Part shown: positions 1-3,152 of the stretch, one piece after another | Layout of the letters: each line of letters starts with the position of its first letter | Numbering within the stretch: position 1 is the stretch's first letter | The notes under the pieces: model-generated | Databases searched by the model: none | The model's input: the letters and a program-made list of their open reading frames with translations, nothing else | Told to the model about the DNA's origin: nothing | Program-made: the position numbers and the translations under genes | Source: Bacteroidota bacterium | Lineage (GTDB): Bacteria > Bacteroidota > Bacteroidia > Chitinophagales > Chitinophagaceae | Direction: 5' to 3' | Length of the DNA: 33,745 nucleotides | Assembly (NCBI GenBank): GCA_947454025.1 | Contig: CANGIZ010000020.1 | Span: 1-33,745, forward strand

Positions 1-149
1 ATTTGAAGGACTCCATTAATGAATTTTCCGATTATATTTGCCGCGAAATACTGGCATTGGAAATTGACTGGGTTCCGGCTTTAGAAGACGGAGTGGATGT
101 CGAAATAAATGACCAAAAATTAAGGATTTCAGTTTTACAAAAAGGATAA
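1..149 (+). CDS. ileS: Isoleucyl-tRNA synthetase, C-terminal end (partial)
   Basis: The open frame enters from the left edge (first whole codon at base 3) and ends with TAA at 147-149, giving 48 residues rich in acidic and hydrophobic positions and ending in LRISVLQKG. This resembles the extreme C-terminus of Bacteroidota isoleucyl-tRNA synthetases, which charge tRNA-Ile in the cytoplasm, and in this phylum ileS is commonly followed by a DksA/TraR-like gene, as here. No catalytic motif (HIGH, KMSKS) falls inside the window, so the call rests on the tail and the gene order. The next gene starts 2 bases after the stop, so the two are probably co-transcribed. Confidence 0.6.
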   Translation, partial: LKDSINEFSDYICREILALEIDWVPALEDGVDVEINDQKLRISVLQKG

Positions 150-151
150 AT

Positions 152-1186
152 ATGGCTACAAAAAAACCAGCGCCTAAAAAAGCAGCAGCAAAAGCTCCAG
201 CAAAAAAAGCGACAGCGCCTGCTAAAAAGGCGGCTCCAGTTAAAGCTCCTATTAAAAAGGCAGCGCCTGCAAAAGCTCCAGTTAAGAAGGCAGCACCAGC
301 AAAAGCTCCTATTAAAAAGGCAGCGCCTGCAAAAGCTCCAGTTAAGAAGGCAGCACCAGCAAAAGCTCCAGTAAAAAAGGCAGCCCCTGCTAAAGCTCCG
401 GTTAAGAAGGCAGCACCAGCAAAGGCTCCAGTAAAAAAGGCAGCGCCTGCAAAAGCTCCTGTAAAAAAAGCGGCAGCACCAGCAAAACCTGCAGCAAAAG
501 CACCAACAAAACCTGTTGCAGCTCCTGCTAAAAAAGCAGTGCCAGCAAAAGCGCCTGTAAAGCCAGCAGCTCCTGTAAAACCAGTTGCGCCAGTAAAGCC
601 AGTTGAAAAATATGTTCCACCAGCTAAGCCGGTTCCAAAAATTCCTACGCCTCCTGTAAAGCCAGTGCGCAAAGCAGCTGAGCCAATTAAGGATATTAAG
701 GTACCAAAGATCAATGCTAAAAGCAGTGTTCCATATCAACCAGGTTATGTGCCAATGGAAAAGAGAAAAGAAGTAGAAAGATCAACTGAAACATTGGTTA
801 AATATTCTGATGCTGAATTAGCTGAATTTAAAGAATTGATTACACGTAAGTTAGACGCAGCTAAAAAAGAGCTTGTTTACTTACAAGGGTTAATTACACG
901 CAAGGATGAATTAGGCGGTGATAATGACGATGCAAGATATATGACCATGGAAGATGGTAGTGTGAGTATGGAAAGAGAGCAATTGGGTCAAATGGCAAGT
1001 CGTCAAATTACATTTATCGACCATTTAGAGAAAGCATTAATGCGCATTGAAAATAAAACTTATGGTATTTGTAGAGTAACAGGCTTGTTAATTAGCAAGG
1101 ATCGTTTACGCGCTGTACCTCACGCAACATTAAGCTTAGAAGCGAAATTGGGTTATGTAAAAAATAGCACCAATGCAGCTGAATAG
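152..1186 (+). CDS. DksA/TraR-family protein with a long histone-H1-like Lys/Ala/Pro tail
   Basis: The 344-residue product has two parts. Residues 1 to about 180 are almost only Lys, Ala, Pro and Val and include eight ten-residue repeats of the form KAP(V/I)KKAAPA (residues 31-110), like the tails of histone H1, bacterial HC1-like and AlgP-like DNA-binding proteins. Residues about 200-344 match the DksA/TraR fold: an acidic/basic coiled-coil segment followed by YGICRVTGLLI and RAVPHATLSLEAK. At the four zinc-ligand positions of DksA only Cys307 remains; the others are Thr310, Ser328 and Ala331. DksA binds the secondary channel of RNA polymerase; the tail suggests added nucleic-acid contact, which is inference. 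The gene lies 2 bases after ileS and ends at a clear terminator. The repeats make its length likely to vary between strains. Confidence 0.85.
   Translation: MATKKPAPKKAAAKAPAKKATAPAKKAAPVKAPIKKAAPAKAPVKKAAPAKAPIKKAAPAKAPVKKAAPAKAPVKKAAPAKAPVKKAAPAKAPVKKAAPAKAPVKKAAAPAKPAAKAPTKPVAAPAKKAVPAKAPVKPAAPVKPVAPVKPVEKYVPPAKPVPKIPTPPVKPVRKAAEPIKDIKVPKINAKSSVPYQPGYVPMEKRKEVERSTETLVKYSDAELAEFKELITRKLDAAKKELVYLQGLITRKDELGGDNDDARYMTMEDGSVSMEREQLGQMASRQITFIDHLEKALMRIENKTYGICRVTGLLISKDRLRAVPHATLSLEAKLGYVKNSTNAAE
242..481 (+). repeat. Eight in-frame 30-bp tandem repeats encoding the KAP(V/I)KKAAPA tail
   Basis: Eight consecutive 30-base units encode ten residues each. Bases 242-300 and 302-360 are almost identical, so a 60-base super-repeat is visible, while later units differ mainly at third codon positions. 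This indicates expansion by unequal exchange or slippage with selection on the protein. The unit length is a multiple of three, so copy-number change would not break the frame. Confidence 0.9.
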
Positions 1187-1203: not shown

Positions 1204-1237
1204 AAAAAAGCCCTGGTTATTAATCAGGGCTTTTTTT
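1204..1237. terminator. Bidirectional intrinsic terminator after the DksA-like gene
   Basis: A GCCCTG/CAGGGC stem with a 9-base loop is flanked by six A on the left and seven T on the right. It therefore works as an intrinsic terminator on both strands, serving the DksA-like gene (ends 1186) and the convergent ABC exporter gene (ends 1263). Confidence 0.9.
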
Positions 1238-1262: not shown

Positions 1263-3083
1263 TTACTTAACCTCCTGCATCTCTATCAACTTGCGGTAAT
1301 AACCGTTCTGAGCAAGTAATTCATCGTGGTTGCCACGCTCTACAATATCACCTTTTTGCAATACGATAATTTCGTCTGCATGACGAATAGTGGAAAGGCG
1401 GTGTGCGATCACAATTGAAGTTCTGTTTTGCATCATATTATTAATAGCGTCTTGCACTAGCTTTTCACTTTCGGTATCTAGTGCCGATGTGGCTTCATCT
1501 AAAATTAGAATCGGCGGATTTTTAAGCACGGCTCTCGCTATGGTTAAGCGTTGACGTTCACCACCACTTAACTTACTTCCACGGTCTCCAATGATGGTGT
1601 TAAATCCATCTTCTTTTTTAACAATAAAATCGTAGGCGTTGGCAATTTTTGCTGCTTCCATAATTTCTGCATCAGTAGCTTCGGGTTTTCCTAATGCAAT
1701 ATTTGCAGCAATGGTATCATTAAATAAAATAGGCTCTTGTGTTACTACACTAATTTGTTGACGAAGACTATTTAAGCTATAGTCTTTAATATTTTTTCCG
1801 TCAATATATAAAGTACCTGCACTTACATCGTGAAAACGAGGTACCAAATCGGCCAAGGTACTTTTACCTGCACCCGATGAACCTACCAATGCAACTGTTT
1901 TTCCTTTTTGAATGGTTAAATTAATATTGTTTAAAATACTTGTATCCTGATAGGAGAATTGTACATTTTCAAACTGAATGGCATTATTGAATCCTGTTAA
2001 TTCAATTGGGTGCATAGGTTCTTCCACAACGATAGGTGCTTCCAATACTTCGTTTAAACGATCTAAGGTAGCAGTGCCTCGATTCACATTGTAAGCCGCT
2101 TGTGACAAGGCTTTTGCGGGGTTAATGATTTGTGAGAATAAAGCAACATAGGTAATAAAAGTGCTACCTGATAAAATTTCTCCGCTAATTACCAACTTGC
2201 CGCCAAACCATAAAACACAACATAAAATCATCACACCTAAAGATTCAGAAACTGGAGAAGCTAAATCGCGGCGGTACAATATTTTGTTTTTGATCTGAAA
2301 AATATCGTCTACTAAACCAAAAAAGTTTTTCTTTACTCTATTTTCTGCAGTGAAAGCTTTGATAATTCTAAGGCCAGTAAGGGTTTCTTCCATCTGACTC
2401 ATAATCTCACCCCATTTTACTTGCGCTTTATTGGTTTGCTTTTTTAAACTTCTACCAATCCTGCCTACTACCAATCCTGCTAAGGGCAATAATACAAAAA
2501 CAAATAAAGTCAGCTTCACGCTTATAATAAATAACACCACAAGAATTCCAATAATATTTAAGGGTTCTTTAATCATGCCCTCTAATGCACCAATAATAGA
2601 ATTTTCTAATTCAGCAATATCATTCGAGGATCTACTTAAAATATCGCCTTTACGTTGTTCAGTGAAATAGCCAATGGGTAATTGTAAAATCTTATTGTAT
2701 AAAAGCTTGGAGTATTTTCTGGTAACTGCATTGCGAATTGGAGCCAAAAAATAAAACGATAAATACAAGAATAAGTTCTTTAGTAAAACAGCAGTGATGA
2801 TACCAAAGCAAATCCAACCCAATGCATACACTTTGCCATACTTCGCAATATTGGTTTGTAAAAAACCATACACAATATCTTTAATGCCACTTGAGGTGCC
2901 CGCTGTAGCCACTTGCGCCGTACTGGTAAGATTGCTGCTGCCAAATATAAGGTCCATGAATGGCATAAGCATACTCAAGGAGAACAAGCTAAATATAATA
3001 GAAAGGGTAATAAACAAGCTATACAGGCCCATATAAGCCTTGTATTCCTTGATATAACTAATGATTCGAATAAATTTTCTCAT
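1263..3083 (-). CDS. ABC exporter, fused permease and ATPase (MsbA/lipid-exporter type)
   Basis: A 606-residue half-transporter. The first 330 or so residues form a six-helix type I ABC exporter domain, followed by a complete ATPase: Walker A GSSGAGKST (about residues 401-409), signature LSGGERQR (about 505), Walker B ILILDEATSALD (about 525-536) and the switch His in IAHRLST. It should act as an inner-membrane homodimer exporting a lipid or other hydrophobic molecule; the MsbA-like assignment is by overall similarity and substrate is unknown. The frame extends upstream to a TTG at 3113, but that codon overlaps a near-match to the -7 promoter element (TTACTTTG, 3111-3118), so the ATG at 3083, beginning MRKFIRIISYI, is preferred. 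It is divergent from rbfA. Confidence 0.88.
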   Translation of the reverse strand: MRKFIRIISYIKEYKAYMGLYSLFITLSIIFSLFSLSMLMPFMDLIFGSSNLTSTAQVATAGTSSGIKDIVYGFLQTNIAKYGKVYALGWICFGIITAVLLKNLFLYLSFYFLAPIRNAVTRKYSKLLYNKILQLPIGYFTEQRKGDILSRSSNDIAELENSIIGALEGMIKEPLNIIGILVVLFIISVKLTLFVFVLLPLAGLVVGRIGRSLKKQTNKAQVKWGEIMSQMEETLTGLRIIKAFTAENRVKKNFFGLVDDIFQIKNKILYRRDLASPVSESLGVMILCCVLWFGGKLVISGEILSGSTFITYVALFSQIINPAKALSQAAYNVNRGTATLDRLNEVLEAPIVVEEPMHPIELTGFNNAIQFENVQFSYQDTSILNNINLTIQKGKTVALVGSSGAGKSTLADLVPRFHDVSAGTLYIDGKNIKDYSLNSLRQQISVVTQEPILFNDTIAANIALGKPEATDAEIMEAAKIANAYDFIVKKEDGFNTIIGDRGSKLSGGERQRLTIARAVLKNPPILILDEATSALDTESEKLVQDAINNMMQNRTSIVIAHRLSTIRHADEIIVLQKGDIVERGNHDELLAQNGYYRKLIEMQEVK

Positions 3084-3152
3084 ATGTAAACTATTCCACG
3101 GAATAATCAGCAAAGTAACTAATTTTACAGCGAATCAACGATTTTGATTATT

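Follow-up and report, generated by a model that had tools for sequence, protein, structure and literature searches.

A DksA/TraR-family protein with a histone H1-like N-terminal tail in Chitinophagaceae, a variant of the DdbA-type architecture

INTRODUCTION

The described protein closest in architecture to the one reported here is DdbA (SCO2075) of Streptomyces coelicolor, which is reportedly the subject of Aldridge et al. (2013) and whose gene, we presume, lies between ileS and lspA. As presented in the available portions of two papers, DdbA combines an H1-like DNA-binding N terminus with a DksA C terminus and is said to modulate RNA polymerase and to organize DNA under stress; when ddbA is deleted, both the compaction of the chromosome and the stress resistance of spores are affected (PMC9043899, PMC11942623). 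Zinc-free DksA is likewise already known, from Pseudomonas aeruginosa, where, according to excerpts of the source, DksA2 is made under zinc starvation beside the zinc-bearing DksA1 (PMC9213440). The Pseudomonas proteins AlgP and PhaF carry histone H1-like low-complexity tails of Lys, Pro and Ala. Excerpts on AlgP state that algP varies in repeat number, that the protein associates with polyphosphate (polyP) granules, and that the spacing of these granules depends on its tail, which also binds DNA (PMC9239181).

The gene described here lies in a window of 33,745 nucleotides, contig 20 of the genome of a freshwater bacterium. The genome is of a Sediminibacterium-like Chitinophagaceae (2.04 Mb, 86.8% complete), and its nearest named relatives are Chitinophagaceae and Bacteroidota MAGs and Sediminibacterium spp., including the cultured S. 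magnilacihabitans. Like DdbA, the window protein joins an N-terminal Lys-rich region, H1-like by composition, to a C-terminal DksA domain. DdbA is an actinomycete protein, considered here from its description in partly available sources. The window protein belongs to Bacteroidota and has lost zinc ligands, its tail is built of KAP repeats, and it has a junction motif found in Chitinophagaceae. AlgP, within the limits of the excerpts, differs in having its KPAA tail at the C terminus of a helical N-terminal domain, with no DksA domain described (PMC9239181). The H1-like/DksA architecture itself is already known from DdbA, as far as its sources could be consulted. What appears to be new is its distribution across Bacteroidota, together with the zinc-less form and the conserved junction motif. 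The literature searched, covered as listings, beginnings of abstracts and excerpts, yielded no report of these or of the tail in Bacteroidota, which is not proof of absence.

RESULTS

Gene and neighborhood. The gene encodes a protein of 344 residues with a pI of 10.2 (Table 1). It follows the 3′ end of ileS, recognized by a match of window positions 3 to 146 to PF19302 (DUF5915) at 27.3 bits against a cutoff of 27; the ileS stop codon occupies positions 147 to 149, and dksA starts two bases on. An ileS gene was found at the same place by Pfam beside two tailed genes (L069 and L203) and one tail-less gene (L120), and by eye beside four more tailed (L092, L109, L142, and L196) and two more tail-less genes (L129 and L155). 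Pfam matches also placed lspA 3′ of dksA in L129, L142, and L196. On this shared position, the tailed and tail-less genes behind ileS are taken as positional orthologs. The ileS-dksA-lspA order is broken in the window, where a convergent open reading frame (ORF) at 1263 to 3113, an ABC transporter by eye, stands at the place of lspA; L005 and L069 look alike in this respect.

The region around the hairpin 3′ of dksA (1195 to 1250) folds at −19.5 kcal/mol (z = −4.96), and a simple terminator scan did not list the hairpin. A promoter scan of positions 1 to 1400 returned one site, on the minus strand, which is fewer than in shuffled sequences, and neither Rfam nor a tRNA scan gave a match in the window. 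Two minus-strand ORFs of 232 and 235 codons (16 to 714 and 32 to 739) mirror the repeat tail. They were rejected as genes, being mirror images of the repeat composition; such antisense ORFs are likely composition artifacts that could be misannotated as genes.

Table 1. Features of the dksA locus, in positions of the window
Feature	Position	Strand	Basis
ileS 3′ end (C-terminal DUF5915 domain of isoleucyl-tRNA synthetase)	3..149	+	PF19302 match
DksA/TraR-family protein with N-terminal histone H1-like tail	152..1186	+	ORF, composition, Pfam
Basic Lys/Ala/Pro tail, about aa 1-187	152..712	+	Composition; tail also in relatives
Eight tandem KAP(V/I)KKA2-3PA units, aa 31-111	242..484	+	Repeat analysis
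Conserved junction KPVRKAAEPIKDIKVPKINAKSSVPYQPGYVPMEKR, aa 170-205; candidate short linear docking motif	659..766	+	Alignment; coil in model
First helix of DksA-type coiled coil, aa 220-254	809..913	+	AlphaFold2 model
Second helix of coiled coil, aa 269-303	956..1060	+	AlphaFold2 model, alignment
Former zinc-finger region with ligand positions C307, T310, S328, A331	1070..1144	+	Pfam, alignment
Intrinsic-terminator-like hairpin 3′ of dksA	1204..1236	+	Inverted repeat, folding energy

The C-terminal domain. The first-pass annotation, made from the window sequence, had recognized a DksA/TraR fold with three of the four zinc ligands replaced, and this held in every detail. PF01258 (zf-dskA_traR) matches residues 303 to 331 at 27 bits (gathering cutoff, 24.9) and 31 bits in the genome scan, and sequence and profile searches match the DksA structures 6ptg, 4ijj, 2kq9, and 1tjl. 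The equivalog cutoffs of the canonical NCBIfam DksA models are not reached (TIGR02420, 38.8 versus 115.5; NF033459, 36.1 versus 105), and a further NCBIfam DksA model scores far below its cutoff (21.4 versus 289). The AlphaFold2 model (mean pLDDT, 73; pTM, 0.57) consists of a pair of long helices plus a small hairpin domain and so contains the two-helix coiled coil and compact hairpin/helix domain of the family. The four best Foldseek matches are Pseudomonas DksA2 (two chains), E. coli DksA, and DksA in a complex with RNA polymerase. The statistics of these matches are weak (E values of 0.004 to 0.013, with none at 0.001; query-normalized TM scores of 0.42 to 0.49), and VIA-align, a second structural aligner, lists only other helical hairpins. 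At the tip of the coil, just ahead of the second helix, E267-D268-G269 is nearly invariant, with E267 and D268 acidic. The ppGpp site of E. coli DksA includes R91, L95, K98, R129, and K139. With positions counted from the aligned cysteines, identical counterparts were present for just two of these residues, R91 and K139 (R284 and K332), so dependence on ppGpp is uncertain. We place the protein in the DksA/TraR superfamily, as a member that is divergent and zinc-free.

Loss of the zinc site. The four-cysteine site of the family is absent: the ligand positions hold C307, T310, S328, and A331, and C307 is the sole cysteine of the protein. A missing zinc site does not exclude a DksA fold, because zinc-free DksA proteins are known. 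P. aeruginosa DksA2 (PDB 4ijj), the best Foldseek match, likewise has a DksA fold without zinc coordination; unlike the window protein, it keeps two cysteines and, as a 136-residue chain, has no long tail. DksA2 also coexists with DksA1, whereas a scan of the 86.8%-complete assembly of the window genome yielded a single DksA/TraR gene. The best sequence-profile match, PDB 6ptg (annotated as a DnaK suppressor; E value, 1.6e-11), has one cysteine in the aligned finger stretch and differs from the window protein in being 132 residues long, without a long tail.

Ligand loss had been thought common in this group, and so it proved: the quartet C-T-S-A occupies the ligand columns in 52/52 aligned sequences, a set that includes the window and both tailed and tail-less proteins, and scripted reading gave this quartet in 88/88 rows as well. 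Elsewhere the variants C-T-T-A (L033 and L034) and C-T-S-G (L040 and L045) occur; the quartets of a few rows (e.g., L030, L169, and L190) were left out as parsing errors. Six deep-phylum relatives (L142, L148, L152, L154, L192, and L209) have all four cysteines together with a basic tail, and in Pedobacter relatives both features are absent. As judged from these alignments, ligand loss is a property of the clade and is not tied to the tail. The pairing of tail and zinc loss in the first-pass annotation thus survives as two real features that are not linked. The idea of the tail as compensation for lost zinc was rejected, as the two occur independently. The single cysteine is invariant in the 52 aligned sequences, with the other ligand residues gone, and Cys307 might have a redox role.

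Composition of the tail. Eight KAP units had been claimed, and repeat analysis agreed: residues 31 to 111 form eight contiguous KAP[VI]KKA(2-3)PA units, the eighth with one extra Ala. Tandem Repeats Finder reports periods of 30 (positions 223 to 494; score, 321) and 60 (positions 223 to 487; score, 377), scores that put the array far beyond chance. Units 1-2 and 3-4 have the same DNA sequence, a 60-bp duplication. The basic tail extends beyond the array and is separated from the domain by the conserved 36-residue junction. Residues 1 to 150 contain 42 Lys, 57 Ala, and 32 Pro and no Asp or Glu, and the net charge is about +49 for residues 1 to 205 versus about −2 for the DksA domain. From this composition the tail is expected to be disordered. 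Its likeness to H1 is compositional, the NCBIfam histone H1-like model NF038053 scoring 17.2 against a cutoff of 80.

The number of units differs between the window (eight) and L003 (three), although their domains are 99% identical, which points to fast repeat turnover. The window's seven equal-length units show a pS of 0.45 and a pN of 0.022, with Ile/Val as the only amino acid difference; they were located by pattern and form one contiguous array in which none was skipped except the eighth. Units from other genomes were chosen by pattern, which lowers their pN. In 27 tails of the genus, counted without the last 75 residues ahead of the domain, 3766 residues include 1081 Lys, 2 Arg, 3 Glu, and no Asp; the domains belonging to these tails contain 313 Lys and 246 Arg. 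Family-wide, the bias is weaker than in the genus and still strong (64 proteins; 2546 Lys, 21 Arg, 118 Glu, and 29 Asp of 8929 residues). Changes from Lys to Glu or Arg are single transitions and yet rare, which argues for selection for lysine as such. On these counts the tail looks to be under selection, its composition held while its repeats turn over quickly.

A search of the genome with the tail sequence revealed no other tail-bearing protein; apart from the gene itself, it returned one weak match, which lies within this region and contains ten stops. Of two HU matches in the genome, one has a frame of 105 residues, too short to hold a tail of this kind, and the other is partial, cut off by the contig end and so not readable.

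Junction motif. The junction stays conserved while the tail repeats vary. Among 93 tailed loci of the family set, which include the window and some near-duplicates, 44 carry the form Y-x-P-[ED]-F-T-[KR]-S-[VIL]-L-D or similar, 46 carry the form S-V-P-Y-x-P-x-Y-x-x-[ML]-E-[KRE]-R, which in Sediminibacterium ends in E-K-R, and the other three are variant-like; the patterns were written after the sequences had been viewed. In an extended AlphaFold2 run the junction is a coil (block pLDDT, 60 to 66), which gave no support to the idea that it folds onto the domain. Because it is modeled as a coil, we propose that the junction may be a docking peptide.

Distribution of the tail. A DksA domain was found in 295 of the 296 genomes of a phylum survey and in 34 of the 36 same-genus genomes examined, and sequence was read at 33 of these 34 (G029 was left out). 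The comparison of homologs and their tail lengths advocated in the first-pass annotation found the tail in all 31 same-genus genomes with readable upstream sequence. In two more, L024 and L031, contig ends leave no tail region; of the 31, L004 and L032 are cut by a contig end, L016 is frameshifted near the start, and L035 has a split domain. All 10 other genomes of the same family (f1) in the phylum survey, one of the same genus and nine of other genera, have tails of 143 to 247 residues with net charges of +13 to +52. Among 22 same-order genomes with a match, 16 were read and 8 have the tail, the remaining six having frames of at most 151 residues. Outside the order, the best-match frame exceeds 180 residues in 3/57 same-class genomes, all three from family f27 and all tailed, and the frames of the other 54/57 are short.

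Sixty of 80 named loci are tailed. The other 20 comprise ten from Pedobacter or Daejeonella, three that are gapped, cut, or broken (L067, L110, and L117), the borderline L123, and six more without a tail; tail-less orthologs are found in Pedobacter and in family f36. A basic tail, defined as at least 40 residues ahead of the domain with a net charge of +10 or more, is present in at least one member of 25/44 families read, a count that leans upward, as regions were partly picked for long ORFs, and that includes several short tails (40 to 60 residues) unlike that of the window. The domain tree has 126 columns and 190 rows, with many unresolved forks; (near-)duplicates (L001, L055, L062, L064, L065, L066, L068, and L072) and cut, broken, gapped, or contig-edge loci (L004, L006, L016, L024, L031, L032, L035, L067, L110, L117, and L143) were left out. 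On this poorly resolved tree the tail state requires at least 15 changes over 183 scored rows. When the seven odd rows are scored as a group of their own, beside tailed and tail-less, 18 changes are needed for the tail label, 11 of them forced by supported branches. The clade that includes Chitinophagaceae has 88 rows, of which 86 have the tail; of the other two, L116 lacks it and one is odd.

Several extensions in the survey are of other kinds. Family f18 (L044, which is G053, and L178, which is G220) has a long C-terminal extension with an acidic end instead of a basic N-terminal tail, and G053 has a second DksA-domain match in a short, 128-residue frame. The N-terminal extensions of L207 (G068), L175 (G345), and L144 (G218) are mixed or acidic (net charges of +10, +24, and −8, respectively), so not every long extension is H1-like. 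In Nonomuraea (L216), the one matching place read encodes a tail-less, four-cysteine DksA, which by eye is followed by lspA and rluD and adjoined by an ileS-like ORF on the other strand. The DksA protein of a Gemmatirosa plasmid record has no Lys-rich tail, and the gene annotated on one Streptomyces goshikiensis plasmid, at 387 bases, is too short for a long one.

The contigs of L004, L024, L031, and L032 end in or near the tail, where L067 has a run of N and L016 its frameshift. The tail repeats probably disrupt assembly from short reads, and the feature may be easily missed for that reason. One metagenome paper, in the portion available, has DksA in a table within a comparison of PacBio and Illumina assemblies (PMC5248499).

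DISCUSSION

The tailed DksA-domain protein is a real feature, widespread in its family and apparently selected, and is a variant of the DdbA-type architecture. By analogy with DdbA, we think it rather probable that it is a bifunctional protein that tethers a secondary-channel regulator of RNA polymerase to the nucleoid. The first-pass annotation had already suggested a hybrid of nucleoid protein and transcription regulator; that remains the best reading and has a precedent in DdbA, and by the same token the idea is not new. It is favored by the PF01258 match, the DksA structure matches, the helices and hairpin of the model, the acidic tip, the split in charge between tail and domain, the conservation of the tail, the signs of selection on its composition, the DdbA precedent, and a SpoT/RelA gene in the genome. 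The NCBIfam scores below cutoff, the weak Foldseek statistics, the VIA-align list of other helical hairpins, and the few matches to the ppGpp site argue against it. The C-terminal domain would act as a zinc-independent DksA, entering the secondary channel of RNA polymerase and working with (p)ppGpp. The lysine tail, expected to be disordered, would keep the protein on DNA or nascent RNA, together with any polymerase that it has bound. The protein would thereby become locally more concentrated on the nucleoid and would also help to compact DNA, probably above all in starvation. The core role would not need the tail, because Pedobacter and family f36 lack it and most same-class genomes outside the order have short frames. 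A stronger version, which we consider improbable as a whole, makes the protein by default a chromatin-anchored polymerase factor of the stringent response. Here the Lys-only tail would load it onto the nucleoid, kept free of Arg and acidic residues for posttranslational control (e.g., acetylation), the junction would dock the protein on a partner, for example a nucleoid protein or RNA polymerase itself, and compaction would be coupled to promoter choice in starvation.

Other roles for the tail were weighed against the DdbA-like one. The genome has a gene for polyphosphate kinase as well as the SpoT/RelA gene, making both a ppGpp partner and a role in polyP possible. As in AlgP, the tail could be a polyanion anchor for polyP, linking starvation granules, nucleoid, and RNA polymerase. 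The similar Lys/Pro/Ala tail of AlgP on polyP granules, with its part in their spacing, and the almost pure Lys of the basic residues in genus tails fit this idea; the KPAA unit, however, is not the repeat of the window protein, and a Lys/Ala/Pro tail suits DNA equally, the AlgP tail itself also binding DNA (PMC9239181). We regard the polyP anchor as quite unlikely.

We judge no more favorably a main role in RNA biology or ribosome assembly, with the tail binding rRNA or nascent transcripts and the domain piggybacking on RNA polymerase. Both DNA and RNA can be bound by basic tails of Lys, Ala and Pro, and the gene starts two bases behind a translation gene. The linkage to ileS, however, says nothing about the tail, because tail-less orthologs share it (L120 by Pfam; L129 and L155 by eye). 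Finally, the tail could be a near-neutral repeat expansion tolerated at the N terminus of an ordinary DksA, as the differing unit numbers of the window and L003 and the tail-less orthologs, including L116 among Chitinophaga on the tree, might suggest. This we find very doubtful: the window repeats differ almost only at synonymous sites, Lys hardly ever becomes Arg or Glu though each is one transition away, every readable genome of the genus has the tail, and basic tails recur in other families.

The tail is present almost throughout one environmental family, and it recurs in further families of the phylum. A general polymerase factor that bears a histone-like tail makes it possible to test in one gene how nucleoid state and stringent transcription are linked; the natural tail-less orthologs of Pedobacter and family f36 are ready controls, and the junction motif is a precise target for mutation.
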